This document shows positions 21,260-36,980 of a stretch of 64,000 nt of DNA, in pieces. The notes under the pieces were generated by a model. It worked only from the letters and a program-made list of their open reading frames with translations, was not told where the DNA came from and made no database searches. A program made the position numbers and the translations under genes. Every line of letters begins with the position of its first letter. The first letter of the stretch is position 1. The DNA comes from Deltaproteobacteria bacterium (lineage in GTDB: Bacteria; Myxococcota; Myxococcia; SLRQ01), in NCBI GenBank assembly GCA_029210625.1, contig JARGFU010000010.1, forward strand, positions 124,001 to 188,000, in the 5' to 3' direction.

Positions 21260-23103
21260 GGGCGCCCCTGCAGATCGACCGCCTCGAGGACCTCGAGTCC
21301 CTGGGCGAGTCCGCCTCCCTCCTCGGGGTCGGGCTCTCCCTGGTCGATCCGCAGATGCGGGTCGTCTGGCAGAACGCGCTGATGCGGGAGGCCTTCCCGG
21401 AGGTGCGCTGCGGTAGCAGCCACTGCTTCACCTCGCACTGGGGGCGCGACTCCCGCTGCCCCGACTGCCTGCCGCTGCTCACCTTCCGCTCCGGCGAGGC
21501 CCGGGAGGGGCTGCGGATCCGGGCTCGCCCGGGCGAGGCGCGCCAGACCTACCGGGTGATGGCCCTGCCGGTGGAGAGCCGGGAGGGGGAGGAGCGCTGG
21601 GTGCTCGAGACCCTGGTCCACCTCCAGAGCGTGCGCACCCTCGACGTGGACGGCGAGCTGACGACCTCCTATCGCCTCGACGCCTCGGCGCTGACGGCGG
21701 CCACCATGGTGATCGATCCCCAGGACCGCATCGTCTCCTGGTCGCCGGGCGCTGGCGCGGTCCTCGGCTACGACCGCGACGAGGTCCTCGGGCGCGCCGC
21801 GAGCCTGCTCCTGCCCCCCGAGGGGCAGGCGGCCTGGGCGGAGCTGCGGGAGCGCGTCGCCCGGGAGGGCCGGGTGCTCGGCGAGGAGGGGATGAGGCTG
21901 GCCCGCGACGGGCGGTTGGTGCCGGTGGGGGTCTCGGCCGTCGCCCTGCGCGACGAGCAGGGGACGCTCCTGGGCACCTCGATCATCCTGGAGGATCGCT
22001 CGGAGGTGCAGGTGCTGCAGCGGCAGCTCGACGCCCAGGAGCAGCTCCTCGATCACCTCCTGCGCGACGTGGGGAGCGCCGTGCTCTCGGTGGATCCCGA
22101 AGGCAGGATCACCAGCTGGAACGGGGAGGCCGAGCGCCTCTTCGGGCTGCCTGCCCTCGACGCCGTCGGCCGGCGCCTCGAGACCCTGGCCGGCAGCATC
22201 TGCGCCCGGACCATCATCGCGGCCTGTGAGCCCGAGGGAGCGCTGCGCGATCGACGCCTGCTCTGGCGACGCGGCAAGGCCGAGGGCATCCCGGTGGACG
22301 TCTCGGCCGCCCCCCTGCGGGAGCGGGCCGGGGGACCGGTGGGCGTGGTGGCCGTGGTGCGGGACGCCCGGGAGGCCATCAAGCTCGAGCGGCAGATGCT
22401 CCGCTCCGAGAAGCTGGCGGCGGTGGGCTCCCTGGCCGCCGGCCTGGCCCACGAGATCGGCACGCCCCTGAACGTCATCTCCGCCTCGGCCGAGTACCTG
22501 ATGCTCGACCAGCCCTCGGAGAGCCCCATCCACCAGGAGCTCAAGGGCATCGTGGCCGAGACCGAGCGGATCAGCGGCCTGGTCCGCGAGCTGCTCACCT
22601 TCGCCCGCGACGGCACCCAGGCGCGCACCGCCGTGGACGTGGAGCAGGCGGTCGGGCGCGCGGTCCACCTGCTGCGGATCCCCCTGGAGCAGAAGGGGGT
22701 CGTCCTCGACCGGGAGGGGCTCGACGCGCTCCCGCCCCTCGAGGCGGACGCGGACAGCCTCCATCAGATCCTCATCAACCTCCTGCTCAACGCCTCGGAG
22801 GTGGTGAAGGAGGGGGGGCGGATCTCGATCCGGGGTCGCGCCGAGCTCGGGGGCGCCGAGAGCGTGGTCCTGGAGGTGCACGACGACGGGCCGGGGGTGC
22901 CCGACGAGCTGCGCGAGCGGGTCTTCGATCCCTTCTTCAGCACGCGCGCCGAGGGCACCGGGCTGGGCCTGGCGGTCTGCGCCCGCCTCGTGCAGTCTCA
23001 CGGCGGCGATCTGCGGGTGGGCCGCAGCCCGCTGGGCGGCGCCTGCTTCTCGGTGCAGCTGCCCGTCTACCTGGACGAGGAAGAGGAGCCGGAAGGTGAG
23101 TGA
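21253..23103 (+). CDS. PAS-domain sensor histidine kinase (NtrB-like) with Cys-rich N-terminal PAS
   Basis: 616 aa from the proposed TTG at 21253, which overlaps the upstream stop by 7 bp; the exact start is uncertain because no ATG precedes the first PAS domain. Three PAS-like domains: about 20-125, 145-255 (MVIDPQDRIVSWSPGAGAVL) and 270-370 (AVLSVDPEGRITSWNGEAE). The first carries Cys 53, 58, 69 and 72 (spacing 4, 10, 2), a possible metal or Fe-S/redox site. HisKA has phosphoacceptor H400 (GLAHEIGTPLN), and the ATPase domain has N-box INLLLNASEVV, DDGPGVP and GTGLGLAV. No membrane segment, so it senses a cytoplasmic signal. It overlaps the activator gene by 8 bp and should phosphorylate its Asp 61. 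Confidence 0.88.
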   Translation: MLRAPLQIDRLEDLESLGESASLLGVGLSLVDPQMRVVWQNALMREAFPEVRCGSSHCFTSHWGRDSRCPDCLPLLTFRSGEAREGLRIRARPGEARQTYRVMALPVESREGEERWVLETLVHLQSVRTLDVDGELTTSYRLDASALTAATMVIDPQDRIVSWSPGAGAVLGYDRDEVLGRAASLLLPPEGQAAWAELRERVAREGRVLGEEGMRLARDGRLVPVGVSAVALRDEQGTLLGTSIILEDRSEVQVLQRQLDAQEQLLDHLLRDVGSAVLSVDPEGRITSWNGEAERLFGLPALDAVGRRLETLAGSICARTIIAACEPEGALRDRRLLWRRGKAEGIPVDVSAAPLRERAGGPVGVVAVVRDAREAIKLERQMLRSEKLAAVGSLAAGLAHEIGTPLNVISASAEYLMLDQPSESPIHQELKGIVAETERISGLVRELLTFARDGTQARTAVDVEQAVGRAVHLLRIPLEQKGVVLDREGLDALPPLEADADSLHQILINLLLNASEVVKEGGRISIRGRAELGGAESVVLEVHDDGPGVPDELRERVFDPFFSTRAEGTGLGLAVCARLVQSHGGDLRVGRSPLGGACFSVQLPVYLDEEEEPEGE

Positions 23104-24502
23104 GGCGACGCCGCGGGAGATCGGCATTTCGGTGCTGGTGGTCGAGGACGACGCGCGGATGCGCGACATCCTCACCCGTCACCTCGAGCGCCTCGGCTAC
23201 GCCGTGCAGGCCGCCGAGGACGCGGCCTCCGCCCTCGGCGTCCTGCGGGAGCTGCCCTTCGACGTGGTCCTCTCGGACGTGCGGATGCCGGGCATGGACG
23301 GCCACTCCCTGATGCAGGTGGTGCGGGAGAAGCACCCCGGCATCAAGGTGGTCCTGATGACCGCCTTCGGCACCGTGGACGCGGCGGTCGACGCCATGCA
23401 GGCCGGCGCCTACTCCTACGTCTGCAAGCCCTTCAAGGTGGAGGAGATCGCGGCGGTGCTGCGCAACGCGGCCCGCGAGATCTCGCTCACCCGCCAGGTC
23501 GAGCGCCTGCGGCGGATCCCGCGGGGGATGCTCTCCGCCGACAGCCTGGTGGGGATCTCGGAGTCGATGCGGGAGGTGCGGCGCTCGGTGCGCGAAGCGG
23601 CGGCCGTGACCTCCCCGGTGCTGATCACCGGCCGCTCGGGCACGGGCAAGGAGCTGGCCGCCCGGGCCATCCACAACGAGGGGCCCCGGCGCGAGGGGCC
23701 CTTCATGCCGGTGAACTGCGCGGCGATCCCCGAGACCCTCTTCGAGTCGGAGATGTTCGGGCACACCCGGGGGGCCTTCACCGGCGCTCGAGAGGATCGC
23801 CCGGGCCTCATCGAGCAGTCCAGCGGCGGCACCCTCTTCCTCGACGAGGCCGGCGAGATCCCCCTGCCGCAGCAGGCGAAGCTGCTGCGGGTCCTCGAGG
23901 AGGGGGTCGTGCGTCGCCTCGGCGCCTCCGAGTCGATCCCGGTGGACCTGCGGGTGGTCTGCGCGACCAACCGCAGCCTCGAGGCCATGATCCGCCAGGG
24001 GGAGTTCCGGGAGGACCTCTACTTCCGCCTCAACGTCCTGCAGGTGAAGATGCCCGAGCTCTCCACCCACCCCGAGGACATCCCGGCCCTCGCCGATCAC
24101 CTCCTCTCCCGGCTCGTGGACGAGACCGGGATCCACTGCCACGGCATCGAGCCGGTGGTGCACGAGCGGCTCGGTGCCCGCCGCTGGCCGGGGAACGTCC
24201 GGGAGCTGCGCAACACCATCGAGCGGGCGATGCTCAAGGCGCGGGGACGCCGGATCGCCGTGGAGGATCTCCCCGGGGATCTCCAGGGCGAGGGGCCCTC
24301 GGTCGACGAGGCCACCCCCGGTGCGCCCGGCGCCCTGCGCCCCCTCTCCGAGGTCGAGAAGGAGCACATCGACGCGGTGCTGCGAGCCTGCGACTGGAAC
24401 CGCTCGGCGGCCGCGAAGGTGCTCGGGATCGACCGCCGGACCCTCTTCTCGAAGATCCAGCGCTACGGGCTCATCGGCCCGAACCGGCAGGGCCGCGGCT
24501 AG
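23096..24502 (+). CDS. NtrC-family sigma-54-dependent response regulator
   Basis: 468 aa from GTG 23096. Receiver domain 10-125 with the phosphoacceptor D61 in VVLSDVRMPGMDG and Lys in VCKPFKV. AAA+ domain about 150-385: Walker A GRSGTGKE (179-186), sigma-54 contact loop GAFTGA (226-231), Walker B GGTLFLDEAGEIP and the RWPGNVREL region. Fis-type HTH at the C-terminus (NRSAAAKVLGIDRRTLFSKI). All motifs needed for activation of sigma-54 RNA polymerase are intact. The gene overlaps the kinase gene and is the last gene before a -24/-12 promoter that starts the respiratory operon 136 bp downstream, with a palindrome at a typical upstream activator distance. It is therefore the likely activator of that operon (inference). 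Confidence 0.93.
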   Translation: MSEATPREIGISVLVVEDDARMRDILTRHLERLGYAVQAAEDAASALGVLRELPFDVVLSDVRMPGMDGHSLMQVVREKHPGIKVVLMTAFGTVDAAVDAMQAGAYSYVCKPFKVEEIAAVLRNAAREISLTRQVERLRRIPRGMLSADSLVGISESMREVRRSVREAAAVTSPVLITGRSGTGKELAARAIHNEGPRREGPFMPVNCAAIPETLFESEMFGHTRGAFTGAREDRPGLIEQSSGGTLFLDEAGEIPLPQQAKLLRVLEEGVVRRLGASESIPVDLRVVCATNRSLEAMIRQGEFREDLYFRLNVLQVKMPELSTHPEDIPALADHLLSRLVDETGIHCHGIEPVVHERLGARRWPGNVRELRNTIERAMLKARGRRIAVEDLPGDLQGEGPSVDEATPGAPGALRPLSEVEKEHIDAVLRACDWNRSAAAKVLGIDRRTLFSKIQRYGLIGPNRQGRG

Positions 24503-24531: not shown

Positions 24532-24637
24532 AAACCCGCCCGGCAGAACCTTCCCATCCCCCACCTCTTGAGTCGGGAAATCGGGGTCTCTGGCTTTTTT
24601 TCTCCGTGAATCCGGTGATGTAGGGAAGGGTGCCACC

Positions 24638-24653
24638 TGGCCCGGGAGTTGCT
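24638..24653 (+). promoter_or_regulatory. Sigma-54 (-24/-12) promoter
   Basis: TGGCCCGGGAGTTGCT matches the consensus TGGCACRNNNNTTGCW at all but one defined base, and the GG-to-GC spacing is exactly 10 bp. The predicted start site is about 24663-24664, two or three bases before ATG 24666, so the message would be almost leaderless. Confidence 0.75.
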
Positions 24654-24665
24654 ACGCCCGCGCCC

Positions 24666-26459
24666 ATGGCCAACCTGCCCATCGAGATTCCGGGGCCCCG
24701 GTACTTCGAGAAGCTGATCTCCTGCCGCGAGGCGTGCCCGGTCCACACCGACGCCCGCGGCTACGTGCAGGCCGTGGCCCAGGGAGACTACGCCCTGGCC
24801 TACCGCATCGCGCGTGCCCCGAACCCCTTCGCCTCCATCTGCGGCCGGGTCTGCGGCGCGCCCTGCGAGGCCGCCTGCCGTCGCGGCGACATCGACGCGC
24901 CGGTCGCCATCCGGGCGATCAAGCGCACCACCACCGAGCGCCACGGCGTCGAGGTGGGGGGGGATCCGAAGGAGAGCCTGATCTTCTCCACCGCGCCGGG
25001 CTCCCTCGAGCCCGAGCAGCTTCCCCACAAGGTCGCCATCGTGGGCGCCGGCGTCGGCGGCCTGACCGCCGCCCACGACCTCGCCCGGGTCGGGGTGCAG
25101 TGCACGGTCTTCGAGGCCGGCGCCAAGCCCGGCGGGATGCTGCGCACCGGCGTGCCCATCTTCCGGCTTCCCGAGAAGGTCTGGAGCACCGAGATCGACG
25201 CCATCCTCTCCCTGGGGGTGGAGCTGAAGTGCAACACCCGGGTGGGCACCGACGTCACCCTCGAGGAGCTCAAGGCGCAGGGCTACGAGGCGGTGATCCT
25301 CGCCGTCGGACTGCAGAAGTCCCGGATGCTCGACCTGCCCGGCAAGGAGCTCGAGGGCATCATCCCGGGCCTGGAGATCCTCGAGGAGTTCAACGACCGC
25401 AAGCCGCGCGAGGGCCTCGGCCGGGTCGTGGTCATCGGTGGCGGCAACGTGGCCTACGACTGCGCCCGCTCCGCCATCCGGATGAAGGGGACCACCGAGG
25501 TCTCCATGGTCATCCTCGAGTCCCTCGAGGAGATGCCCGCCGACGAGATCGAGATCATCGAGGGCGACGAGGAGGGCATCGTCCGCCTGAACCGGCACGG
25601 TCCGGTCCGCTTCGTGGGCGAGGACGGGAAGGTCACCGGCCTCGAGACCCGCAAGGTCAGCCGGGTCTTCGACGAGGAGGGGCGCTTCGCCCCGGTGCTC
25701 GTCGACGGCTCCGAGGAGATCGTCCCCTGCGACACCATCATCGTCGCCATCGGCCAGGCCTCGGATACGGGCTTCGCCAACGGCGTGGAGGAGCTCGAGC
25801 TGGGCCGGGGCGGCGTCGTGGTGGCCGACCGGGAGACCGGCGCCACCTCGATCCCCTGGATCTACGCCGTCGGTGACGTGGCCCTCGGGCCCGGCCTCTT
25901 CATCAACGCGATCGCCCACGGGCAGAAGGCGGCGAAGCTCGTCTTCCGCCAGCTGGTCGGCGAGGAGAAGGCCGAGGAGATCCTGCGCCAGCCCAAGACC
26001 TTCGGCTTCCTGACCGAGAAGATCCGCGAGGGGCTGCGCCAGGACTACCTGCACCTGAACCGGGCGTTCCCGCCCGCGGCCGACCCCGGTGAGCGGCTCG
26101 GGCAGATGGATCTGCAGGTCGAGCACATGTACGACGACCGGGAGGCCCGGCTGCAGGGGTCGCGCTGCCTGCGCTGCGAGGTCGAGACGGTCTTCGACGG
26201 CGCCAAGTGCATCCTCTGTGGGGGCTGCGCCGACGTCTGTCCGACCTGGTGCCTGAAGCTGGTGGACACCGAGTCCATCGGCCTCGGTGACCAGTTCCCC
26301 GGCAAGTCCGCGATCATCAAGGACGAGGATCGCTGCATCCGCTGCGGCTACTGCGCCGAGCGTTGCCCCACCGACGCCATCACCATGGAGCGCCTGGTGG
26401 GCTTCGAGGAGTGGACCGATCAGCCGCTGGTCCAGCTCGGGAAGGTGCGGGGAGCCTGA
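24666..26459 (+). CDS. GltD-like FAD/NAD(P) oxidoreductase with C-terminal ferredoxin clusters
   Basis: 597 aa. N-terminal GltD-type Fe-S segment with Cys 20, 24, 59, 63, 67 and 71 (SCREACP, ICGRVCGAPCEAAC), FAD motif VAIVGAGVGG (123-132), NAD(P) motif VVVIGGGNVAYDCAR (about 258-272) and an AIGDVA-type FAD end (YAVGDVALG). The C-terminus adds a Cys-rich segment (CLRCEVE, CILCGGCADVCPTWC) and a second ferredoxin motif (CIRCGYCAERCP), about residues 500-570. Such GltD-like proteins move electrons between NAD(P)H and Fe-S carriers and are not necessarily glutamate synthase; no large GltB subunit is near. As the first gene of the operon it may link a soluble electron donor to the membrane complexes downstream (inference). 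The family N-terminus and lack of other Met make ATG 24666 the likely start; no Shine-Dalgarno is seen. Confidence 0.85.
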   Translation: MANLPIEIPGPRYFEKLISCREACPVHTDARGYVQAVAQGDYALAYRIARAPNPFASICGRVCGAPCEAACRRGDIDAPVAIRAIKRTTTERHGVEVGGDPKESLIFSTAPGSLEPEQLPHKVAIVGAGVGGLTAAHDLARVGVQCTVFEAGAKPGGMLRTGVPIFRLPEKVWSTEIDAILSLGVELKCNTRVGTDVTLEELKAQGYEAVILAVGLQKSRMLDLPGKELEGIIPGLEILEEFNDRKPREGLGRVVVIGGGNVAYDCARSAIRMKGTTEVSMVILESLEEMPADEIEIIEGDEEGIVRLNRHGPVRFVGEDGKVTGLETRKVSRVFDEEGRFAPVLVDGSEEIVPCDTIIVAIGQASDTGFANGVEELELGRGGVVVADRETGATSIPWIYAVGDVALGPGLFINAIAHGQKAAKLVFRQLVGEEKAEEILRQPKTFGFLTEKIREGLRQDYLHLNRAFPPAADPGERLGQMDLQVEHMYDDREARLQGSRCLRCEVETVFDGAKCILCGGCADVCPTWCLKLVDTESIGLGDQFPGKSAIIKDEDRCIRCGYCAERCPTDAITMERLVGFEEWTDQPLVQLGKVRGA

Positions 26460-26609
26460 ATGACGCTCATGACCCTGATCTTGCTCGCCAGCGCCGTCCT
26501 GATGGCGGCCGGCGCCGGGCTCATCTTCGCCTGGGCCGCCAGGAGCGGGCAGTTCGACGACATGGAAGAGGCCAAGTACCAGATGCTTCGCGAGGATACG
26601 CAAAAGTGA
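26460..26609 (+). CDS. ccoS: CcoS, cbb3 oxidase assembly protein
   Basis: 49 aa, a very short gene. The ATG directly follows the stop of the upstream gene (TGAATG). One membrane helix (about residues 4-26) is followed by the CcoS signature FAWAARSGQFDDME, then EEAKYQMLRED. CcoS is required for cofactor insertion during maturation of cbb3 oxidase. The stop overlaps the GTG of the Rieske gene (GTGA), so translation is coupled. In classical ccoGHIS clusters ccoS is the last gene; here it is near the front of the operon, before the bc-type subunits. Confidence 0.85.
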   Translation: MTLMTLILLASAVLMAAGAGLIFAWAARSGQFDDMEEAKYQMLREDTQK

Positions 26610-27097
26610 CCACGTCCAAGCTCAATCCCGAACGCTCCGGAGCCCAGCCCGAAGACCGGCGGAAGTTCATCGCCGTCGCCTCGGCCCTCGTCCTCGGCAT
26701 CGCCGGCGGCCTGATGGGGCTCTTCAACCTGATCTTCCTCCGCCCGCGGGTCACCTACGGCGCGCCCAGCAAGGTGCGGGTCGGCAAGCCCGAGAGCTAC
26801 TCCCCCGGCTCGACCATCGAGCTGCCGGCGGACAGCATCGTCGTGAAGCGCGAGGGCGACAGCTTCATGGCCATCAGCACGGTCTGCACCCACCTGGGCT
26901 GCACCGTGAAGGCCACGGAGATCGGCTTCGACTGCCCCTGCCACGGCAGCAGCTACGACTCCGAGGGGAACGTGGTCGCCGGCCCGGCGCCGAAGGCCCT
27001 CTCCTGGTACCGGATCTCCCTCACCCCCAACGGTGAGCTCGAGGTCGACAAGCAGCAGGTCGTGAAGGCCAACACCTACATGGAGCTGCCGTCATGA
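26606..27097 (+). CDS. qcrA: Rieske iron-sulfur protein of a cytochrome bc/b6f-type complex
   Basis: 163 aa from GTG 26606 (overlap with ccoS). It carries the 2Fe-2S high-potential cluster that takes electrons from quinol and passes them to cytochrome c. A single N-terminal helix (about 22-44) is preceded by RRKF, a Tat-like twin arginine context. Cluster-binding motifs are CTHLGC (94-99) and CPCHGSSYD (110-118), both complete. Frame continues upstream without a signal, so the GTG that overlaps the ccoS stop is chosen. Its stop overlaps the ATG of the cytochrome b gene (ATGA). Confidence 0.93.
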
Positions 27098-27915
27098 GTG
27101 TTCAGAACGTCCATGCCTCCGAGGCGCCCGACCGCTCCGGCGAGGGCAACCTCCTCAAGGTCCTCCCCGGGCGCCTCTGGCGCTCGATCTTCCGGACGCG
27201 GATCATCCCCACCAACGAGCTGGAGCGGTCGAAGTCGGTCTCCGACAACTTCTTCTTCCACATCCACTCCTCGAAGGTCACCGAGCACACCCTCAAGCCC
27301 ACCACCACCCTGGGGCTGGGGCTCTTCACGCTCTACACCTTCGTGATCCTGGTCATCACCGGCGTCCTGCTGATGTTCTACTACGTGCCGACGGTGGCCG
27401 AGGCCTACGACCGGATGCTCGATCTGCGGGGCGCCGTCTTCTTCGGCACCTTCCTGCGGAACCTGCACCGCTGGTCCGCCCACGCGATGGTCGCCCTCGC
27501 GGTGGCCCACATGGTGCGGGTCTACCTCACCGGGGCCCACAAGGCGCCGCGGGAGTTCAACTGGGTGGTGGGGGTCATCCTCCTGCTGCTCACCCTCTTC
27601 ATGTCCTTCACCGGCTACCTCCTGCCCTGGGACCAGCTGGCCTACTGGGCCATCGTGGTGGGCACGGCCATCGCAGGCTACGCGCCGCTCGTCGGTGACG
27701 AGATGCGCTACTTCCTCCTCGGCGACTTCGCGGTGGGTGGGGAGGCGCTGCTGCGCTTCTACGTCCTCCACGTCGTGGTGCTGCCGGCGGTGCTGACCAC
27801 CTTCATCGGGGTGCACTTCTGGCGCATCCGCAAGGACGGTGGCCTGGCTCGCCCGAAGCCGGCGCCCGCGTCGACCATCCCCACCCCGGTGCTGCCGGAT
27901 CAGGCGAAGGAGTAG
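27094..27915 (+). CDS. qcrB: Cytochrome b, N-terminal half (b6-type)
   Basis: 273 aa, the size of cytochrome b6 rather than full-length cytochrome b, so the protein is split as in b6f and some bacterial complexes. Four membrane helices lie at about 73-95, 125-150, 157-178 and 220-245. The haem ligands are H125 and H139 (spacing 14) in helix B and H226 and H241 (spacing 15) in helix D. The 15-residue spacing in helix D is the b6-type feature. [15 protein letters not shown] is the conserved quinol-site region. It would bind two b haems and form the quinol-oxidising core with the Rieske protein and the next gene product. Proline/alanine-rich C-terminal tail. Confidence 0.92.
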
Positions 27916-27918
27916 GTC

Positions 27919-28446
27919 ATGTCCGACCCCATCGAGAAGCCCGAGTTCGAGCGGTTCCCCCTGAAGCAGGGCAAGACCTACGGCCTGATGTGCGTGGTGG
28001 ACGCCAAGTCCGAGGCCACGCAGATCCCGACCGAGAAGCAGGTCCAGGCCTGGCCCAACGCGCTGATCCGCGAGGTCCTGCTCTTCGTCGTCACCCTGCT
28101 GGTGCTCTCCCTGGTGGCCATCCTCTTCGATGCGCCCCTGGAGGAGCCGGCCAACCCGCTGCATCCACCGAACCCCGCCAAGGCCCCCTGGTACTTCCTG
28201 GGTCTCCAGGAGCTCGTCAGCTACGACGCCTTCTGGGGTGGCATCGGCATCCCCGGGCTGCTGGTCGTCATGGCGATGGCCGCGCCCTACCTGGAGCGGA
28301 AGCCCGGAGGGGAGGGGGTCTGGTTCGCCCCCTCGCGCTCGGCGGCCAACTGGATCTTCATCATCATCATGGGCACCCTCGGCATCCTGACGATCATCGG
28401 GTCGCTCTTCCGGGGTGAGAACTGGGCCTTCGTGGTGCCCTGGTAG
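27919..28446 (+). CDS. Cytochrome b C-terminal half / subunit IV-like
   Basis: 175 aa. It starts 3 bp after the b6 stop. Three predicted helices (about 52-72, 102-122, 143-163) follow a hydrophilic N-terminus. The motif NPAKAPWYFLGLQELVSY matches the start of helix F in cytochrome b C-terminal domains and subunit IV, but the usual PEWY quinol-site motif is absent at the expected place. With the preceding gene it rebuilds a complete cytochrome b. The unusually long soluble N-terminus (about 45 residues) may contact the multihaem cytochrome encoded next (inference). Confidence 0.85.
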   Translation: MSDPIEKPEFERFPLKQGKTYGLMCVVDAKSEATQIPTEKQVQAWPNALIREVLLFVVTLLVLSLVAILFDAPLEEPANPLHPPNPAKAPWYFLGLQELVSYDAFWGGIGIPGLLVVMAMAAPYLERKPGGEGVWFAPSRSAANWIFIIIMGTLGILTIIGSLFRGENWAFVVPW

Positions 28447-28456
28447 GAGACGATCG

Positions 28457-30166
28457 ATGCGAATCAGGCTCATGCTCCTGGTGACCAGCCTGGCGATGAC
28501 CCTCGTCGTCGGCTTCGTCATCTTCAAGTCCACGTCCGAGGAGTGGCGGGACCACCAGCTGTCCTACTACGACCTGGCCATGGGGCGGGCTTCCACCGCC
28601 GCAACGAAGGAAGCCATCGCCAACGCTGGCCTCGAGATCAAGCAGGACACCCTCACCGCCTTCGGTGAGGAGACCCGGGTCGACCGGTGCCGCACCTGCC
28701 ACGCCGCTATCGACGATCCGAACTTCGCCGACGGGCAGAACCCGCTGAAGCAGCACCCGAAGATCCCGGAGCATTCCTTCAACGAGTTCGGTTGCACCAT
28801 CTGCCACGAGGGCAACGGGCGAGGTCTCTCCAAGTACTACGCCCACGGGGAGGACCACTTCTGGCCCGAGCCGCTGCTCACCGGCCCCTTCATCGAGGCC
28901 TCCTGCGCCCGCTGCCACCCCGAGCCCTACCTCGAGGAGATGCCCCACATCGCCCGGGGCCGGGAGCTCTTCAAGGAGTACGCCTGCGAGGGCTGCCACA
29001 CGATCCAGGGCTTCGCCCGCGGCAAGCTCGGGCCGGACCTCACCGAGGTCGGCGCCCACTTCAAGGTGGACTACCTGATCGAGTCGATCGCCGAGCCGGC
29101 AGCGAACATGCCGATGACGATCATGCCGAAGTTCCACATGAGCGAGCAGGAGCGCACCGATCTGGCGGTCTTCCTGAAGAGCCAGCGGGGCCGCACCCTG
29201 GTGGAGGATCCCATCACCCTGCGGATCACCACCCGCGAGTGGAAGGAGAAGAGCCCCACGCCGGTCGAGGTCTCGGTCGAGGTCGGCCAAGCCGCCTTCG
29301 AGAAGCGCGCCTGCATCGCCTGTCACAAGCTGGGCGAGCGGGACGGCAAGCTCGCTCCCGAGCTCGACTGGATCGGCCTGATCCGCGACGAAGCCTACAT
29401 CGCGAAGCACATCGAGAACCCGCGGGCCCACACCGGCGGCAGCAACATGCCGACCTTCTGGACCTCCAAGGAGGAGCGGCGGGCCATCGCCGCATTCCTG
29501 GCCACTCAGCAGACCATCGAGCTGCCGGAGAGCCCGGCCGAACAGTACGCGAAGCTCTGCTCCCGTTGTCACGGCAAGGAGGGGCACGCCGACGGCGTCA
29601 TCGCCAGCAACCTCCTGCCCCGGCCGCGCGAGTTCACCAACGCCAAGTTCTTCAACTGGCTCCCCGAGCAGCGGGCCCACAACGCCATCCGCAACGGCGT
29701 GCCGGGCACGGCCATGCCGGCCTTCGGCAAGATCCTCGACCAGCAGCAGGCCGAGGCCCTCTTCGCCTGGGTGCGGGAGAACTTCCTCAAGGCCGAGCGG
29801 GAGGAGTGGAACAAGCCCCGCAAGCTGCCGGAGAAGAAGGCCGTGGCCTACAGCGAGGAGAGCGTCGCCCGGGGAAAGAAGGTCTTCGCCATGCGCTGCT
29901 ACGGCTGTCACGGGCGGCGGGGCGACGGCAAGGGCCCCAACGCGCCCGACATGCTCCCCCGGCCGCGGGAGCTGACCTCCACCTCCTTCATGGGCCACGT
30001 CGACGACATGCGCCTCTTCGAGTCCATCACCTACGGCATCGTCGGCACCGGCATGCCGCCCTGGGACTACCTGCCCGAGAACCAGCGGTGGGACCTCGTG
30101 AACTTCATCCGTTCCATCTCCAACACGGCCGAGGCGTCCGGTGACGCTGGTCAGGGAGGCAGCTAG
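28457..30166 (+). CDS. Membrane-anchored seven-haem cytochrome c
   Basis: 569 aa. An in-frame ATG upstream exists, but ATG 28457 begins a single N-terminal hydrophobic anchor (about residues 5-24). Seven CXXCH motifs: 78-82, 113-117, 150-154, 177-181, 286-290, 368-372 and 481-485. The last four sit in cytochrome c-like folds; those at 368 and 481 are tandem copies sharing CHGxxG, LLPRPRE/MLPRPRE and a GxPGTAMPxF / GIVGTGMPPW axial-Met region. The first three haems form a separate N-terminal group. It lies between the cytochrome b and CcoN genes and may replace cytochrome c1 and CcoP, passing electrons from the Rieske protein to CcoO (inference). It follows the previous stop by 10 bp. Confidence 0.85.
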   Translation: MRIRLMLLVTSLAMTLVVGFVIFKSTSEEWRDHQLSYYDLAMGRASTAATKEAIANAGLEIKQDTLTAFGEETRVDRCRTCHAAIDDPNFADGQNPLKQHPKIPEHSFNEFGCTICHEGNGRGLSKYYAHGEDHFWPEPLLTGPFIEASCARCHPEPYLEEMPHIARGRELFKEYACEGCHTIQGFARGKLGPDLTEVGAHFKVDYLIESIAEPAANMPMTIMPKFHMSEQERTDLAVFLKSQRGRTLVEDPITLRITTREWKEKSPTPVEVSVEVGQAAFEKRACIACHKLGERDGKLAPELDWIGLIRDEAYIAKHIENPRAHTGGSNMPTFWTSKEERRAIAAFLATQQTIELPESPAEQYAKLCSRCHGKEGHADGVIASNLLPRPREFTNAKFFNWLPEQRAHNAIRNGVPGTAMPAFGKILDQQQAEALFAWVRENFLKAEREEWNKPRKLPEKKAVAYSEESVARGKKVFAMRCYGCHGRRGDGKGPNAPDMLPRPRELTSTSFMGHVDDMRLFESITYGIVGTGMPPWDYLPENQRWDLVNFIRSISNTAEASGDAGQGGS

Positions 30167-30168
30167 TC

Positions 30169-31569
30169 ATGTCCGATACGACCAAGAAGGGGGTCTGGAG
30201 CGAGCCCTCCGCCATGGGCTTCATCGTCAGCTCGGTGGTCTTCTTCGTGATCACCGTGCTGGTGGGCGTCCTGGTCTCCCTCAAGTTCATCTGGCCCGAG
30301 TTCATGGGCACCGCGCCCTGGCTGACCTTCGGCCGGATGCGCCCCCTCCACGTGAACGGCGTGCTCTTCGGCTGGCTGCTGGCGGCCGACATCGGCGTGC
30401 TCTTCTACATGGTGCCCCGGCTCTGCGGTAACAAGCTCTGGAGCGAGAAGCTCGGCCTGGCGACGCTCTTGCTCTTCGACCTGATCATCCTCGCCGCGGT
30501 CTTCACCACCCTCGGGGGCTACACCCAGGGCCTGGAGTACGCGGAGCTGCCCTTCGTGCTCGACGTAGGCGTGACCCTCGCCTGGGTGATGTTCGGGGTG
30601 AACATCTTCGCCACCATCGCCACCCGGAAGCACGAGAAGCTCTACGTGAGCCTCTGGTACACCATGGGCGCGGTCATCTGGACGGCCTTCGTCTGGATCA
30701 CGGGCAACTTCGCCACCGAGCTCTTCACGGGGATCAACCAGGCGAACCTCAACTGGTTCTTCGTCCACAACGCGGTGGGCCTGATCTTCACCCCGCTGGG
30801 CGTCGCCATCGCCTACTACTTCATCCCGAAGTCGGCGCAGGCGCCCCTCTACTCCCACAAGCTCTCGATGATCGGCTTCTGGAGCATCGCCTTCATCTAC
30901 GTCTGGACCGGCGCCCACCACATGATCCACGGGCCCATCAGCCAGTGGCTCCAGACGGTGGCGATCCTCTTCAGCGTCATGCTGATCATCCCGGTGTGGA
31001 CGGTGATCGTGAACTTCTTCGGCACCGTCGCCGGGCGGTGGGACGTCGTGAAGCAGGAGCCGATCCTCAAGTTCCTGATGACCGGCACCACCTTCTATCT
31101 GCTCACCTGCTTCCAGGGGCCGATGCACTCCCTGCGGACGGTGAGCGCCATCGTGAGCAAGACCGACTGGGTGGTCGGCCACGCCCACATGGCGGTGCTC
31201 GGGGCCTTCTCCTCCTTCGCGATGGCCGGCGTCCTCTTCGCCGTCCCGGAGATGGCGGGGCGGAAGCTGCACTCGAAGAAGCTGGCGAACCAGGCCTTCT
31301 GGCTCTTCCTCACCGGCGGCCTGATCTACTACGTCAGCCTCTGGGTGGGCGGCTTCATCCAGGGCCTGCAGTGGAACGACACGGCCATCCCCTTCATCGA
31401 CACCGTCAAGTCGATGCGGCCCTACTGGATCGCCCGCTCCTTCTCCGGGCTGCTGATCCTCACGGCGGTCGGGCTCTTCCTCTACAACATCGTCCGGACC
31501 CTGGGCCGCCAGGGAGACGGGGCCGCCGAGGCTCCCTCCGCCGACGTCACCCCGGCCGCGGCTTCCTGA
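30169..31569 (+). CDS. ccoN: cbb3-type cytochrome c oxidase subunit I
   Basis: 466 aa, the catalytic subunit reducing O2 to water with proton pumping. About 12 membrane helices. Conserved residues in the order seen in characterised CcoN: H61 (haem b ligand, RPLHVNG), H200 (CuB, FFVHNAVG), Y244 and H250/H251 (YVWTGAHH, the cross-linked Tyr/His and CuB site, six residues apart as in known cbb3 oxidases), and H338/H340 (GHAHMAV, haem ligands). Nothing essential is missing. It starts 2 bp after the seven-haem cytochrome stop. The high-affinity cbb3 type suggests respiration at low O2. C-terminal tail is Ala-rich. Confidence 0.96.
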   Translation: MSDTTKKGVWSEPSAMGFIVSSVVFFVITVLVGVLVSLKFIWPEFMGTAPWLTFGRMRPLHVNGVLFGWLLAADIGVLFYMVPRLCGNKLWSEKLGLATLLLFDLIILAAVFTTLGGYTQGLEYAELPFVLDVGVTLAWVMFGVNIFATIATRKHEKLYVSLWYTMGAVIWTAFVWITGNFATELFTGINQANLNWFFVHNAVGLIFTPLGVAIAYYFIPKSAQAPLYSHKLSMIGFWSIAFIYVWTGAHHMIHGPISQWLQTVAILFSVMLIIPVWTVIVNFFGTVAGRWDVVKQEPILKFLMTGTTFYLLTCFQGPMHSLRTVSAIVSKTDWVVGHAHMAVLGAFSSFAMAGVLFAVPEMAGRKLHSKKLANQAFWLFLTGGLIYYVSLWVGGFIQGLQWNDTAIPFIDTVKSMRPYWIARSFSGLLILTAVGLFLYNIVRTLGRQGDGAAEAPSADVTPAAAS

Positions 31570-31582
31570 AAGGAGAGAGGCA

Positions 31583-32128
31583 ATGCTCAAGAAAATGGAC
31601 ACGAGCGCGAGCGCCCTCTTCCTCGGGGCGCTGGTCTTCTTCCTCGTCGGTGGTCTCCTGACCACCGTCCTGCCCTGGCTCTCCGAGAAGTCCTGGGCGC
31701 AGCCGACCGCGCACCTGAAGGACTACACCGAGTCCGAGCAGCGCGGCCGGGACATCTACGTCCGGGAGGGGTGCTGGTACTGCCACACCCAGCAGATCCG
31801 CACCCTCGAGGCCGACACCGTCCGCTACGGCTGGCGCGGCGTGGACGCGCCGATCTCCGTTCCGGGCGAGTACACCCGAGACAAGCCTCACCTGCTGGGG
31901 ACCCGCCGGATCGGCCCCGACCTGGCCCGGGTGGGCGGGAAGTACGACAAGAGCTGGCACAAGACCCACTTCAACAACCCGCGAGATCTGGTGCCGGGCT
32001 CGGTCATGCCGCCCTTCCCCTGGATCGTGACCGACAATGGTGGCCAGGATCTGGATGACCTGGTCGCCTACATGCAGACCCTCGGTCGCGGCCAGGACTG
32101 GCGTCCGGACGACGACTACGAGCACTAG
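31583..32128 (+). CDS. ccoO: cbb3-type cytochrome c oxidase subunit II (monohaem)
   Basis: 181 aa, near the family size. One N-terminal membrane helix (about 10-32) and one haem site CWYCH (64-68) with the CcoO phrase GCWYCHTQQIR; Met142 in SVMPPFPW is the likely axial ligand. A strong Shine-Dalgarno (GGAGAGAGG) precedes the ATG. CcoO donates electrons to CcoN. Its normal partner, the dihaem CcoP, is not found here, so the seven-haem cytochrome upstream may feed it (inference). Confidence 0.95.
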   Translation: MLKKMDTSASALFLGALVFFLVGGLLTTVLPWLSEKSWAQPTAHLKDYTESEQRGRDIYVREGCWYCHTQQIRTLEADTVRYGWRGVDAPISVPGEYTRDKPHLLGTRRIGPDLARVGGKYDKSWHKTHFNNPRDLVPGSVMPPFPWIVTDNGGQDLDDLVAYMQTLGRGQDWRPDDDYEH

Positions 32129-32131
32129 GCC

Positions 32132-32323
32132 ATGATCTGGCAGAGCGAAGCGATCCTCTACGGGCTCATGATCACGAACGTGTTGGTCGTGGGCGCCGCC
32201 CTCGTCTGGGCCTGGCGCTCCGGTCACCTGCGCGATCTCGAGTCCGCCGGGGACGTGCTTTTCGAAGATCCGGCGCCATCTTCTACGCTTGGCGGCGCCG
32301 ACCACAGAGGAACGAAGTCATGA
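32132..32323 (+). CDS. Small membrane protein with CcoS-like motif
   Basis: 63 aa with one membrane helix (about 8-28). After the helix the sequence reads WRSGHLRDLE then VLFED, closely matching the RSGxxxDxE and LxED pattern of the CcoS encoded at 26460. It therefore looks like a second CcoS-like protein, located where ccoQ usually lies between ccoO and ccoP. Starts 3 bp after ccoO and its stop overlaps the next ATG (ATGA). It could be a CcoQ-position stabiliser or a diverged assembly factor. The homology to CcoS is by eye over about 25 residues. Confidence 0.6.
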   Translation: MIWQSEAILYGLMITNVLVVGAALVWAWRSGHLRDLESAGDVLFEDPAPSSTLGGADHRGTKS

Positions 32324-32532
32324 GCGAGAGCAAGAACGGTGCGCACGAGGAGCTCGCGGTCTACCCCAACGGCATCGAGGAGAAGCCGGGCGGGAACGTC
32401 CAGCTCTTCCTGAAGCTGACCTACATCGGGTTCGTCATCTTCGGGATCACCTACTTCATCCTGTACATGTCGGGGGACGGCAGCGAGCTGGTGCAGCAGT
32501 TGAATCAGGCCACCGGTCATGCCAGCCCCTGA
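32320..32532 (+). CDS. Small single-helix protein resembling the N-terminal domain of CcoP
   Basis: 70 aa. A soluble N-terminus with NGIEEKPGG is followed by one membrane helix (about 35-55). GIEE just before the helix recalls the DGIEEL-type motif of the FixP/CcoP N-terminal anchor, but there is no haem motif: the protein ends soon after the helix. It may be a stand-alone CcoP anchor whose haem domains were lost and whose role is taken by the seven-haem cytochrome; alternatively an unrelated subunit. Overlaps the previous gene by 4 bp and the ccoG gene by 14 bp. Confidence 0.5.
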   Translation: MSESKNGAHEELAVYPNGIEEKPGGNVQLFLKLTYIGFVIFGITYFILYMSGDGSELVQQLNQATGHASP

Positions 32533-33766
32533 TCCCCTCGCCGTACGCCCTCCCCGGGGAGGGCGCCTCCACACCCGGCGCCGGGCGCTGCAGCTCTTCA
32601 CCTCGCTCGCCCTGATCCTGGCGCCCTTCCTCGACCTCCTGCGCTTCGACCTCGAGGGCGGGCGGCTGATCCTCTTCCGTACCTCCTTCCACCTCAGCGA
32701 GATGGGGCCGATCTACGCCCTGCTCCTGCTCTGCATGCTGCTGATCTTCGCGGGGGCGCTGATCTACGGGCGGCTCTGGTGTGGCTGGATGTGCCCCCAG
32801 ACCACCCTCTCCGAGCTGGCGGCCACGATCGAGCGGGCCCTCCTCCTCGGGACCAAGCGCAGCCCGGGCCGCAAGGCCCTCTCCAAGGTGCTGATCCTGC
32901 TGGTCGCCGCCGGGGTGGCCACGAGCCTGATCTCCTACTTCGTGCCGCCCGCCCGCCTGATCGCGCCGACCCTGCCGGTCGCCGTCACCTGGGCGGTCTT
33001 CTTCGGCATCCTCGCCTTCGACCTGCTCTGGGTGCGCCACGACTTCTGCTTCAGCGTCTGCCCCTACGGCATCCTCCAGGGGGTGGTGCAGGACGAGCGC
33101 ACCCTGGGGGTCACCTTCGGCCGGGACCTCTCCGGCTACTGCGTGAGCTGCAAGGCGTGCGTGCGCTCCTGCTTCATGGGCATCGACATCCGCGAGTCGC
33201 CCTTCGATCCCCAGTGCCTCAACTGCGGGGACTGCGTGGACTCGATCAACGAGTCCCACGAGCGCCGCGGCATCCCCCTGATCACCGGCTTCGCCTACGG
33301 TCCGCAGACCTCGAGCTGGCCGCTCCCCTTGCTGGCGCTGGGCATCGTCGACTTCCGGCGGGTGGCGGTCGTCGTGCTCATCGCCGTGGTCGGGACCGTC
33401 TCGGCCTTCCTCCTCATGGGCCGGGCGCCCATCGACGGGACCATCTCGCCCCGCTTCGATCTGCAGGCCCTCGCCGACGGCCGGGTCGCGAACCACTACA
33501 ACGTCAGCGTCACCAACCACACCCCGGCCCAGGTGAAGGTGAAGGTCGCGGCCGGGGGGGTCCCCGGCCTGCGCGTGCTCCAGCCCACCAGCGCCGTGGA
33601 GATCCCCGCCGGGAAGCGCCAGCACCTCGAGCTGATCCTCGACGCGAGCTGCGCGGGCCTTGAGAGCGGCGCCCACCCGATCACGGTCGAGCTCGACGCC
33701 TCCCTCGCCGAGGGGCCCCAGGCGCTGCCGACCCGCTTCTTCATCCCCGGGAAGGACTGCTCATGA
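32519..33766 (+). CDS. ccoG: CcoG-like membrane ferredoxin, cbb3 maturation
   Basis: 415 aa. CcoG (RdxA/FixG) reduces copper during cbb3 assembly. Membrane helices at about 28-45, 65-85, 118-140, 155-175 and 280-300; the CGWMCPQ motif after helix 2 and CxxxCPYG follow the family. First ferredoxin site CVSCKACVRSC is complete. The second, CLNCGDCVDSIN, lacks the fourth Cys (Ile at the position expected three residues after the third Cys plus one), so that cluster may be [3Fe-4S]-like, use another ligand or be degenerate. A C-terminal Ig-like periplasmic domain follows (about 320-415). ATG overlaps the previous gene by 14 bp; stop overlaps the next ATG. Confidence 0.88.
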   Translation: MPAPDPLAVRPPRGGRLHTRRRALQLFTSLALILAPFLDLLRFDLEGGRLILFRTSFHLSEMGPIYALLLLCMLLIFAGALIYGRLWCGWMCPQTTLSELAATIERALLLGTKRSPGRKALSKVLILLVAAGVATSLISYFVPPARLIAPTLPVAVTWAVFFGILAFDLLWVRHDFCFSVCPYGILQGVVQDERTLGVTFGRDLSGYCVSCKACVRSCFMGIDIRESPFDPQCLNCGDCVDSINESHERRGIPLITGFAYGPQTSSWPLPLLALGIVDFRRVAVVVLIAVVGTVSAFLLMGRAPIDGTISPRFDLQALADGRVANHYNVSVTNHTPAQVKVKVAAGGVPGLRVLQPTSAVEIPAGKRQHLELILDASCAGLESGAHPITVELDASLAEGPQALPTRFFIPGKDCS

Positions 33767-34601: not shown

Positions 34602-36980
34602 GTGGAGAGCCAGGCCTGCACCCTCTGCGGCACCCCGACCCCCCGGCCCGAGGACGCCTTCTGCTGTGAGGGCTGCGCCCGGGTGGCCGAGATCCTCGAG
34701 AGCTCGGGCTACGCCGGGGACGTCCGGCAGGCGCCGGCCTTCCTCCAGGCCCAGCGCGCCGGGCTCATCCCCGTGGAGGGCAGCGCGGCGCCCGGGCGCG
34801 CCCCCGGCCCCGCGCTCGCGCTCGACGAGGCCCAGGCCCGGGAGTGCCCCCTCGAGATCGACGGGATGTGGTGCCCCTCCTGCGCCTGGCTCATCGAGCA
34901 CACCCTGCGGACCACGCCGGGAGTGATCAGCGCGGAGGTCTCCTTCCTCGCCGATCGGGCGGACATCCGCTTCGACCCGGCGCAGGTGGGCAAGGAGAGC
35001 CTCGAGGGTCGGGTGAAGGAGCTGGGCTACGCGGTGAAGGCTCTGGGCTCGGCCCGGGAGACCCGGGGCGCCTGGATCCGCTTCGGGATCTCGGCCGTCC
35101 TCTTCGCCAACGTGATGATGATCTCCTACGCCTACTACGGCTATCGCAGCAGCCCGGTGCCGGAGGTCGTCGCCTCGCTCCTGCCCTGGCTACTGGCGCT
35201 GCTGACCGCGCCGATCCTCTTCGGCGCCGGCTGGTCGATCCTGCGGCGGGGCGTGCTGGCCCTGCGCTTTCGCAGCGTCACCATGGACACCCTCATCACC
35301 GCGGCGGCGCTCTCGGCCTTCGCCTACAGCCTGCAGGCGGCCTGGGCCGGGACCAACGATCTCTACTTCGACGTCACCGCCGCCCTGGTTACCTTCTGGC
35401 TCCTGGGCCGGCTCATCGAGCAGAGCGCCTTTCGCAAGGCGGTGGAGACCACCGACGCCGTCCGCCGCCTCCTGCCCCGCAAGGCCCGCCGGCTGGAGGG
35501 CGGCGAGCCCCGCTGGGTGGACGTCGTCGAGCTGCAGCCGGGCGATCGTCTGCGGGTGGCGGCCGGGGAGCGGGTGCCGGTGGACGGACGCCTCCTCTCC
35601 GAGGAGGCGACGGTCAGCACCGCCATCGTCGACGGCGAGCCGCGCCCGCGGACGGTGCGGGCCGGGGACGCGATCCCCGGCGGGGCGACCGTGGGCGCCG
35701 CCGCCCTCGAGCTGGAGGTCGCCGCGGTGGCCGACGCCTCGATGCTCGCCCGCGTGGCGGACCACGTCGCCGCGGTGGCCGCCCGCACCGGCGAGGAGGC
35801 GACGATCACCGATGCGCTGGCGCGGGCGCTCCTGCCGGTGGTGATCGTCCTCTCGCTGTGCACGGGCGCCTACTGGATCACCCAGGGGGCCGAGTTCCCG
35901 GTCGCATTCGAGCGCGCCCTGGCGGTCCTCGTCGTCTCCTGTCCCTGCGCCCTGGCGGTGGCCGCGCCCCTGGCCCGGGTGGTGACCGCGACCTTTCTCG
36001 CCCGCCGGGGGGTGGTGGTGCGCGGGGAGGGCGCGGTGGACGCCGCTGGCCGGGCCCTCGAGGTGGCCTTCGACAAGACGGGCACCCTGACCCGGGGCGA
36101 GATGAGCGTGGCCGAGGTGCGCTGCGAGGGCATCGAGCGCGGGGCGCTCCTCCGCATCCTGGCCGCCCTGGAGGAGCGGGCCGGTCACCCCATCGCCTTC
36201 GCCATCTCCCGGGAGGTCGAGGGCGAGGCGCTCCCGGAGGTCGAGGGCGTCCGCGTCGAGGCCGGGCGGGGGGTGCGGGGGCGCCACGAGGGCGCCCTGC
36301 TCCTGGCCGGCAGGCCCGACTGGGTGGTGGAGGAGTCCTCGCCCGCGCCGCCGGCCCTCGCCGGGGCCATCGAGGCGGCGCGCGAGGCAGGGCGGCCGGC
36401 CATCGCCGTCGCCCGGGAGGGCCGGGTGATCGCCACCCTGGCCTTCGACGATCCGATCCGCGGGGAGGCGGCGGCGACCGTGGAGCGGCTCCACGCCCTC
36501 GGGCTGCACACGGCGGTGCTCTCCGGCGACGCCGGGCGGGCCGTGGCGGCGCTGGCCGCCGAGGTGGGGGTGGGGGAGGGCCACGGTGATCTGCTCCCCG
36601 AGGACAAGGCCGCCTGGCTCGAGGAGCGGCACGCGGCCACCGGCGAGCGGCCGATCTTCGTGGGAGACGGGGTCAACGACGCCCCTGCCCTCGCGGCCGG
36701 CGTCGGGGTGGCCGTGGCGGCCGGGACCGACTTCGCCCGGGAGACCGCCGCGGTGCTGCTCCTCGACGCCGACCTCGGCCGCCTGGTGGGCTTCGTCGAG
36801 GCCGCCCGCCGGATGCGGCGGATCATCAAGCAGAACCTCGCCTGGGCCTTCGCCTACAACGTGGTGGCCGTCGCCCTGGCGGCCTCCGGCAACCTCGATC
36901 CGGTGATCGCCGCCGGGGCCATGGTGAGCAGCAGCGTGCTGGTCACGATGAACTCCCTGCGCTTGCGCCGCCCGGCCTAG
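34602..36980 (+). CDS. ccoI: Copper-transporting P-type ATPase, cbb3 type
   Basis: 792 aa from GTG 34602. CcoI (FixI/CopA2) exports copper for insertion into the cbb3 CuB site. The N-terminus has a zinc-ribbon-like CTLC and FCCEGC (residues 6-25), then an HMA domain with MWCPSC (about 88-94). Eight membrane helices; the transport motif SCPCALA (about 446-452), phosphorylated Asp in DKTGTLT (about 491), GHPIAF-type ATP site (about 527), and GDGVNDAPAL hinge. All catalytic motifs intact. A TAGCCT hexamer precedes the start by 6 nt and no Shine-Dalgarno is seen, although the gene lies 21 bp after its neighbour. Its stop is shared in CTAG with the convergent ZIP gene. Confidence 0.93.
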   Translation: MESQACTLCGTPTPRPEDAFCCEGCARVAEILESSGYAGDVRQAPAFLQAQRAGLIPVEGSAAPGRAPGPALALDEAQARECPLEIDGMWCPSCAWLIEHTLRTTPGVISAEVSFLADRADIRFDPAQVGKESLEGRVKELGYAVKALGSARETRGAWIRFGISAVLFANVMMISYAYYGYRSSPVPEVVASLLPWLLALLTAPILFGAGWSILRRGVLALRFRSVTMDTLITAAALSAFAYSLQAAWAGTNDLYFDVTAALVTFWLLGRLIEQSAFRKAVETTDAVRRLLPRKARRLEGGEPRWVDVVELQPGDRLRVAAGERVPVDGRLLSEEATVSTAIVDGEPRPRTVRAGDAIPGGATVGAAALELEVAAVADASMLARVADHVAAVAARTGEEATITDALARALLPVVIVLSLCTGAYWITQGAEFPVAFERALAVLVVSCPCALAVAAPLARVVTATFLARRGVVVRGEGAVDAAGRALEVAFDKTGTLTRGEMSVAEVRCEGIERGALLRILAALEERAGHPIAFAISREVEGEALPEVEGVRVEAGRGVRGRHEGALLLAGRPDWVVEESSPAPPALAGAIEAAREAGRPAIAVAREGRVIATLAFDDPIRGEAAATVERLHALGLHTAVLSGDAGRAVAALAAEVGVGEGHGDLLPEDKAAWLEERHAATGERPIFVGDGVNDAPALAAGVGVAVAAGTDFARETAAVLLLDADLGRLVGFVEAARRMRRIIKQNLAWAFAYNVVAVALAASGNLDPVIAAGAMVSSSVLVTMNSLRLRRPA

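Follow-up and report, generated by a model that had tools for sequence, protein, structure and literature searches.

Gene content of the locus

The window, that is, the whole stretch of 64,000 nucleotides that was analysed, carries a respiratory gene cluster in the order flavoprotein, Rieske protein, cytochrome b6, subunit IV, seven-haem cytochrome, CcoN, CcoO, two small membrane proteins and CcoG; the gene of a CcoI-like ATPase follows at some distance. All of them point the same way, and between Rieske and CcoG neighbouring genes overlap or are spaced by 14 bases at most. The features are the following, where the counts of loci refer to the 25 related loci described below.

24630..26459, + strand: GltD-like NAD(P)/FAD flavoprotein, whose N-terminal part bears Cys clusters and whose C-terminal part bears two 4Fe-4S motifs (401.6 bits to NCBIfam PRK12771, under the cut-off of 516)
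26606..27097, + strand: Rieske 2Fe-2S protein (Pfam Rieske, E=1e-12; putative GTG start)
27094..27915, + strand: cytochrome b6-type subunit (Pfam Cytochrome_B, 142.7 bits; NCBIfam ExtP, 255 bits, below the cut-off of 290)
27919..28446, + strand: subunit IV (NCBIfam ExtQ, E=2e-24, below cut-off; Pfam Cytochrom_B_C, 21.3 bits)
28457..30166, + strand: seven-haem membrane-anchored cytochrome c with three probable bis-His and four probable His/Met haems (CXXCH motifs and conserved ligand candidates)
30169..31569, + strand: CcoN, catalytic subunit of a C-type (cbb3) haem-copper oxidase (NCBIfam ccoN, E=1e-103, below cut-off; Pfam COX1, 302 bits)
31583..32128, + strand: CcoO, monohaem subunit (Pfam FixO, 158.7 bits)
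32132..32323, + strand: small CcoQ/CcoS-like membrane protein (Pfam FixS, 18.6 bits, and FixQ, 14.8 bits, both below cut-off)
32320..32532, + strand: small membrane protein resembling the N-terminal anchor of CcoP, with no haem motif (FixP_N, 12.8 bits, cut-off 24.9)
32519..33766, + strand: CcoG-like oxidase assembly protein (found in 21 of the 25 loci; E=3e-50 to NCBIfam CcoG, short of the cut-off)
34602..36980, + strand: CcoI-like copper P-type ATPase, named by sequence and position (19 of the 25 loci have a homologue in this position)

The features of a b6-type Rieske/cytochrome b complex are present here: the Rieske cluster ligands, which are invariant across 35 sequences, the four candidate haem-ligand histidines of cytochrome b (125, 139, 226 and 241), which are invariant as well, and a separate subunit IV. 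In many Acidobacteriota the latter is fused with cytochrome b. The longest Rieske frame starts before 26606 and overlaps the flavoprotein gene, and the start was placed at 26606. In subunit IV the Qo-site motif reads KAPWYF instead of the usual PEWY; KAPW-F is invariant in 36 sequences, and the Tyr is found in 35 of them, with a single change of Y to F. Moreover, cytochrome b bears an HxH motif at residues 56-58, where His56 occurs in all 32 sequences and His58 in every one of the cbb3-linked operons. Cysteine is missing altogether from the window cytochrome b, which thus has no covalent haem cN like that of the Kuenenia and b6f complexes. As for the flavoprotein, two GxGxx-type nucleotide motifs accompany its Cys clusters.

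On the oxidase side, the haem and CuB ligands of CcoN (His61, His200, His250, His251, His338 and His340) are invariant, and so is Tyr244, which we take to be the active-site tyrosine from its 44-residue spacing to His200, the spacing of the P. stutzeri enzyme. The dihaem CcoP of a cbb3 oxidase is absent at the locus, where only the haem-less anchor-like frame 32320-32532 is seen. A similar frame lies at the same place in 19 of the 25 loci; FixP_N matches its copies in all four non-acidobacterial cases (11-13.5 bits) and in one from Acidobacteriota (14.3 bits), the rest being unmatched and all scores falling below 24.9, so that a CcoP ancestry of this small protein is suggestive only.

Directly upstream of the operon (21022-24502) the window encodes a PAS histidine kinase and an NtrC-type regulator, and relatives of this pair (50-64% identity) are also found upstream of the operon in L003, one of the related loci.

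The seven-haem cytochrome and its haem ligands

The frame 28457-30166 on the + strand is open over 569 amino acids and contains CXXCH at residues 78, 113, 150, 177, 286, 368 and 481, while shuffles of the same composition contain on average 0.01 such motifs and at most 2 (20,000 trials). Its limits, as drawn by the initial annotation, are right: the gene starts with ATG preceded by AGGAG, and is separated from its flanking genes by 10 and 2 bases. Residues 2-25 are hydrophobic and form a helix in structure prediction, which together with the motif positions and the shuffle test bears out the description of a membrane-anchored protein with seven haem motifs. The proposed layout, namely a haem triplet, two cytochrome c domains (haems 4 and 5) and two C-terminal domains, is likewise recovered by Pfam, which gives c7/c3-type matches at the triplet followed by four Cytochrome_CBB3/Cytochrom_C domains. 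The two C-terminal domains, which had been called tandem-duplicated, are indeed repeats of each other (33% identity over 83 residues, E=4e-17).

The ligand candidates were examined in an alignment of 27 rows, comprising the 25 seven-haem loci, the window protein and a split five-haem protein described below. Besides the CXXCH histidines, H100, H106, H130, M223 and M331 are invariant in 27/27 rows, and M420 and M533 in all 26 rows having that part. In the simplest reading of these residues, haems 1-3 would be bis-His and haems 4-7 His/Met coordinated. H318 is also invariant and probably plays a structural role. The triplet ligands and M223 are shared by two five-haem proteins of the window's class and by a second multihaem protein of the window's genome.

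The full-length AlphaFold2 model (5-row alignment) reached a mean pLDDT of 54, which is too poor for placing haems; the C-terminal half modelled alone reached 77.5 and was used for fold search only. The best match of this half is the Kuenenia dihaem protein 6h5l_B (E=5e-13), followed by monohaem cytochromes, some of them from alternative complex III, and by actinobacterial QcrC, the match to the latter fold being weak (7qhm_C, E=7e-5). In a profile search of PDB sequences CcoP was also among the matches (E=4e-8), weaker than 6h5l_B. On the seven-haem protein the CcoP family TIGR00782 scores 63.8 bits, under its curated cut-off of 179.95, and on the N-terminal half the ExtS cytochrome of the selenite/tellurite operon (NF040971) scores 76.5 bits, under its cut-off of 100.

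Relatives and conserved gene linkage

A scan of genome contigs yielded full-length relatives in L001 and L002 (61-63% identity), L003 (56%) and L004, from an Acidobacteriota metagenome-assembled genome (43%), together with one partial relative. A profile search with a threshold of E<=1e-60 then placed the family mostly in Acidobacteriota, where 24 of 297 genomes match (20 over full length), with matches in 3 of 392 genomes of Planctomycetota, 2 of 195 of Myxococcota (the window's phylum, the window itself included) and 1 of 8 of the unassigned phylum of L001. Besides the window, 25 seven-haem loci were found, 20 from Acidobacteriota, 3 from Planctomycetota, 1 from Myxococcota and 1 unassigned, the genome of L003 (G783, of the window's class) being counted once.

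The gene linkage in these loci is strict. Subunit IV is present in 25/25, the Rieske protein, cytochrome b and the flavoprotein in 24/25 each, CcoN in 24/25 and CcoO in 23/25, and all the misses come from two loci at contig ends, L004 and L085. In every locus where the contig allows judging, the seven-haem gene stands between the Rieske/cytochrome b genes and CcoN-CcoO. The initial annotation had suggested a family search to see whether the architecture always lies beside CcoN, and so it does except at one contig end; among the relatives found, none with the complete seven-haem architecture is encoded apart from CcoN. The position of the flavoprotein gene varies: it comes first in the window's clade, and lies after CcoO, within the cco genes, in Acidobacteriota. 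In the tree L001, L003 and the three rows of Planctomycetota form one group with the window (support 100/99), and the Acidobacteriota form a clade apart (99/96); the deepest part of the tree has very long branches and was left out of interpretation. With three phyla interleaved in one clade, the tree suggests that the operon has spread by lateral transfer.

Directly after the operon in the genome of L003 a second cbb3 cluster was seen (L086, 14090-18354), with CcoN, a two-haem CcoO match and CcoG.

Split forms and absent partner cytochromes

One acidobacterial genome (G123) has a split form of the gene (L083), where a 402-residue five-haem protein, a further gene and a 298-residue two-haem protein are followed by CcoN and CcoO. 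The five-haem protein matches residues 19-355 of the seven-haem protein and the two-haem protein residues 364-552. In addition, relatives of the N-terminal half with five or six haems adjoin Rieske/cytochrome b and flavoprotein genes in L088, L090 and L091-L093, where no CcoN was found beside them within the sequence span examined. Given the split form and the occurrence of the five-haem half alone in bc-type loci, the seven-haem protein is best read as a fusion, and it looks like a natural one, between the multihaem subunit of a bc complex and a dihaem cytochrome standing in for CcoP.

The cytochromes that usually link such complexes were sought with family profiles. CcoP (TIGR00782) is over the cut-off in 0/28 genomes, with one control genome over it, and cytochrome c1 (PF02167) is found in 0/27, with Caulobacter as positive control. 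FixP_N passes its cut-off in four genome entries, two of which are one genome, and there it lies beside a second, separate cbb3 cluster. The genomes tested hold many other cytochrome c genes. It had been claimed from the sequence that the seven-haem protein replaces two separate cytochromes. As a functional statement this is well supported by the position in the locus, the unfused five-haem plus two-haem form and the absence of c1 and CcoP over cut-off; the descent of the C-terminal half from CcoP does not follow, as its nearest solved relative is 6h5l_B and CcoP is weaker.

The genome of the window has further respiratory loci. Two more Rieske/cytochrome b loci were observed (G000:C42, L095, and G000:C7, L096); an 8-haem protein belongs to one of them, and a compact 316-residue protein bearing seven CXXCH motifs to the other. 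A separate aa3-type oxidase (G000:C13, L097) lies among genes resembling alternative complex III (ActD/ActE-like by eye), by which this genome has at least two routes to oxygen. A third COX1-family gene (G000:C4, L098, 7552-9915, minus strand; 787 residues) looks like a quinol nitric oxide reductase.

A probable fixed conduit from quinol to oxygen

As the seven-haem gene lies between two complexes that are without their usual linking cytochromes, its product is probably a built-in wire that hands electrons across. More specifically, we consider it likely, judging from gene arrangement and conserved residues, that the protein serves as the fixed electron conduit of one quinol:oxygen assembly, in which a b6-type Rieske/cytochrome b complex is joined to CcoN-CcoO. 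The five-haem N-terminal half would supply the Rieske/cytochrome b complex with its c-type subunit, replacing cytochrome c1 or f, and the two-haem C-terminal half would take the place of CcoP. Electrons would then pass from quinol to the Rieske cluster, the haems of the five-haem half, the C-terminal haems and the haem of CcoO, and from there through haem b of CcoN to haem b3/CuB and O2. In this scheme we infer the physical complex itself, the order of the haems, the path and speed of the electrons, O2 as the acceptor in vivo and the type of quinone.

A precedent for a working fusion exists, since an engineered cytochrome c1-CcoP fusion forms an active bc1-cbb3 supercomplex (PMC7876108). On the other hand, the distance between the c1 and CcoP haems in that construct is about 50.8 A and a mobile cytochrome is still needed (PMC7876108), so that here too a soluble carrier may bridge the two enzymes, the more so as other cytochrome c genes are numerous in these genomes. 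Also counting against a wire are the closer relation of the C-terminal half to the Kuenenia dihaem protein than to CcoP, and the free-standing two-haem protein of L083, which seems to be secreted and not anchored and shows that a covalent link is not essential.

Comparison with known systems

The closest published systems are the two Rieske/cytochrome b complexes of Kuenenia stuttgartiensis (Kustd1480-1485 and Kuste4569-4574), which contain a multihaem cytochrome c and an NAD(P) oxidoreductase and for which formation of NAD(P)H by bifurcation has been proposed (PMC12954380). Like the window operon, they combine a b6-like cytochrome b, a subunit IV-like protein, a membrane-anchored multihaem cytochrome c replacing cytochrome f and an NAD(P) oxidoreductase; unlike it, they have a hexa- or octahaem cytochrome c and a modelled covalent haem cN, and no oxygen reductase in the cluster. 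The Kuenenia-type trait of encoding an NAD(P)-binding FeS flavoprotein alongside the complex is conserved here in the 24 loci counted above, and the best solved relatives of the window Rieske protein are 9rk4 and 9rk3, i.e. the Rieske proteins of both Kuenenia complexes, a kinship suggestive of a link to NAD(P)H. Neither the flavoprotein as a member of the conserved set nor the Kuenenia parallel had been included in the initial annotation. The HxH motif of cytochrome b is possibly the counterpart of the extra interface haem site modelled in Kuenenia.

In the actinobacterial bcc-aa3 supercomplex, the dihaem QcrC, the c-subunit of complex III, forms a fixed link to the oxidase; it differs from the present case in having an aa3 oxidase and two haems, and we know of no NAD(P) flavoprotein in it. 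The engineered c1-CcoP fusion of Rhodobacter capsulatus resembles the window protein in that one polypeptide spans the c-subunit of complex III and the position of CcoP; however, it is man-made, joins one haem to two in a true c1 and CcoP and depends on the mobile cytochrome (PMC7876108), whereas the window protein is natural, has seven haems and uses an unrelated c-subunit. The octahaem bc-like operons of Nitrospina, Kuenenia and Methylomirabilis share the split b6-type cytochrome b and a multihaem cytochrome c as sole c-subunit, but are octahaem with no cbb3 gene described alongside, and the three cbb3 subunits of Nitrospina are fused together (PMC3578206). Within Acidobacteriota, Terriglobus roseus and Acidobacterium capsulatum are reported to have cbb3 operons where a further cco gene of unknown function accompanies CcoN and CcoO, with no low-oxygen role found (PMC8407424); as in the window, CcoN-CcoO are reported and CcoP is not, while the text of that paper names no seven-haem link (PMC8407424). 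No natural fusion of bc and cbb3 cytochromes was found in the literature searched, subscription papers lying outside its scope, which is weak evidence of novelty.

Alternative and additional readings

The Kuenenia parallel raises the question of whether the operon encodes a bifurcating, O2-driven NAD(P)+ reductase, in which one electron of quinol would go through the seven-haem wire to O2 and the other through haems b and the flavoprotein to NAD(P)+. Such a reading would add to the wire and not replace it. The near-constant flavoprotein, lying inside the cco genes in Acidobacteriota, points this way, as do the Rieske relatives from two complexes for which the same mechanism is proposed, and the invariant His56/His58 of the cbb3-linked cytochrome b, which could match the extra interface haem of Kuenenia (PMC12954380). 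However, in Kuenenia too the mechanism is a proposal, the cysteine for haem cN is missing from the window cytochrome b, and a normal Q cycle in which NAD(P)H enters through the flavoprotein fits equally well, so that we hold bifurcation to be a tentative possibility. Similarly tentative is the full picture of one machine joining quinol oxidation, O2 reduction and NAD(P)+ reduction, where the wire would take the high-potential electron to a CcoP-less cbb3 oxidase and the low-potential electron would make NAD(P)H.

Two other readings give the seven-haem protein a different partner. It might belong to the Rieske/cytochrome b complex only, with a soluble cytochrome feeding CcoN-CcoO and the co-location being merely regulatory; in fact the five-haem half does occur in bc-type loci without an oxidase, other cytochrome c genes are plentiful in these genomes, and engineered bc1-cbb3 fusions still require a mobile carrier (PMC7876108). 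This becomes unlikely in view of the presence of CcoN beside the whole seven-haem relatives found, all but one at a contig end, and of the missing CcoP haems, which are the normal meeting point of a soluble donor. Alternatively, the bis-His triplet might be an entry port for electrons donated from outside, for instance by iron, sulfur or nitrogen compounds, from which the wire would lead to CcoNO or back into the quinone pool. The matches to ExtS (N-terminal half) and ExtP (cytochrome b) of the selenite/tellurite Ext operon, though below cut-off, would agree with it, and one Kuenenia complex is thought to be coupled to nitrite reduction (PMC12954380). But the triplet and its ligands are common to bc-linked relatives without an adjoining oxidase, which points to a role in the bc complex, and among the named genes mapped beside the seven-haem gene no conserved donor protein was recognised; we therefore regard an entry port as quite improbable.

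Implications

If the fixed conduit is true, it explains how a cbb3 oxidase can work without CcoP. The structures of a bc1-cbb3 supercomplex came only after c1 and CcoP had been artificially fused (PMC7876108), and such a fusion has apparently been made naturally in several phyla, with enough haems for a fixed wire. The operon would moreover provide an aerobic counterpart to the complexes of anammox bacteria, for which bifurcation is proposed to yield NAD(P)H.
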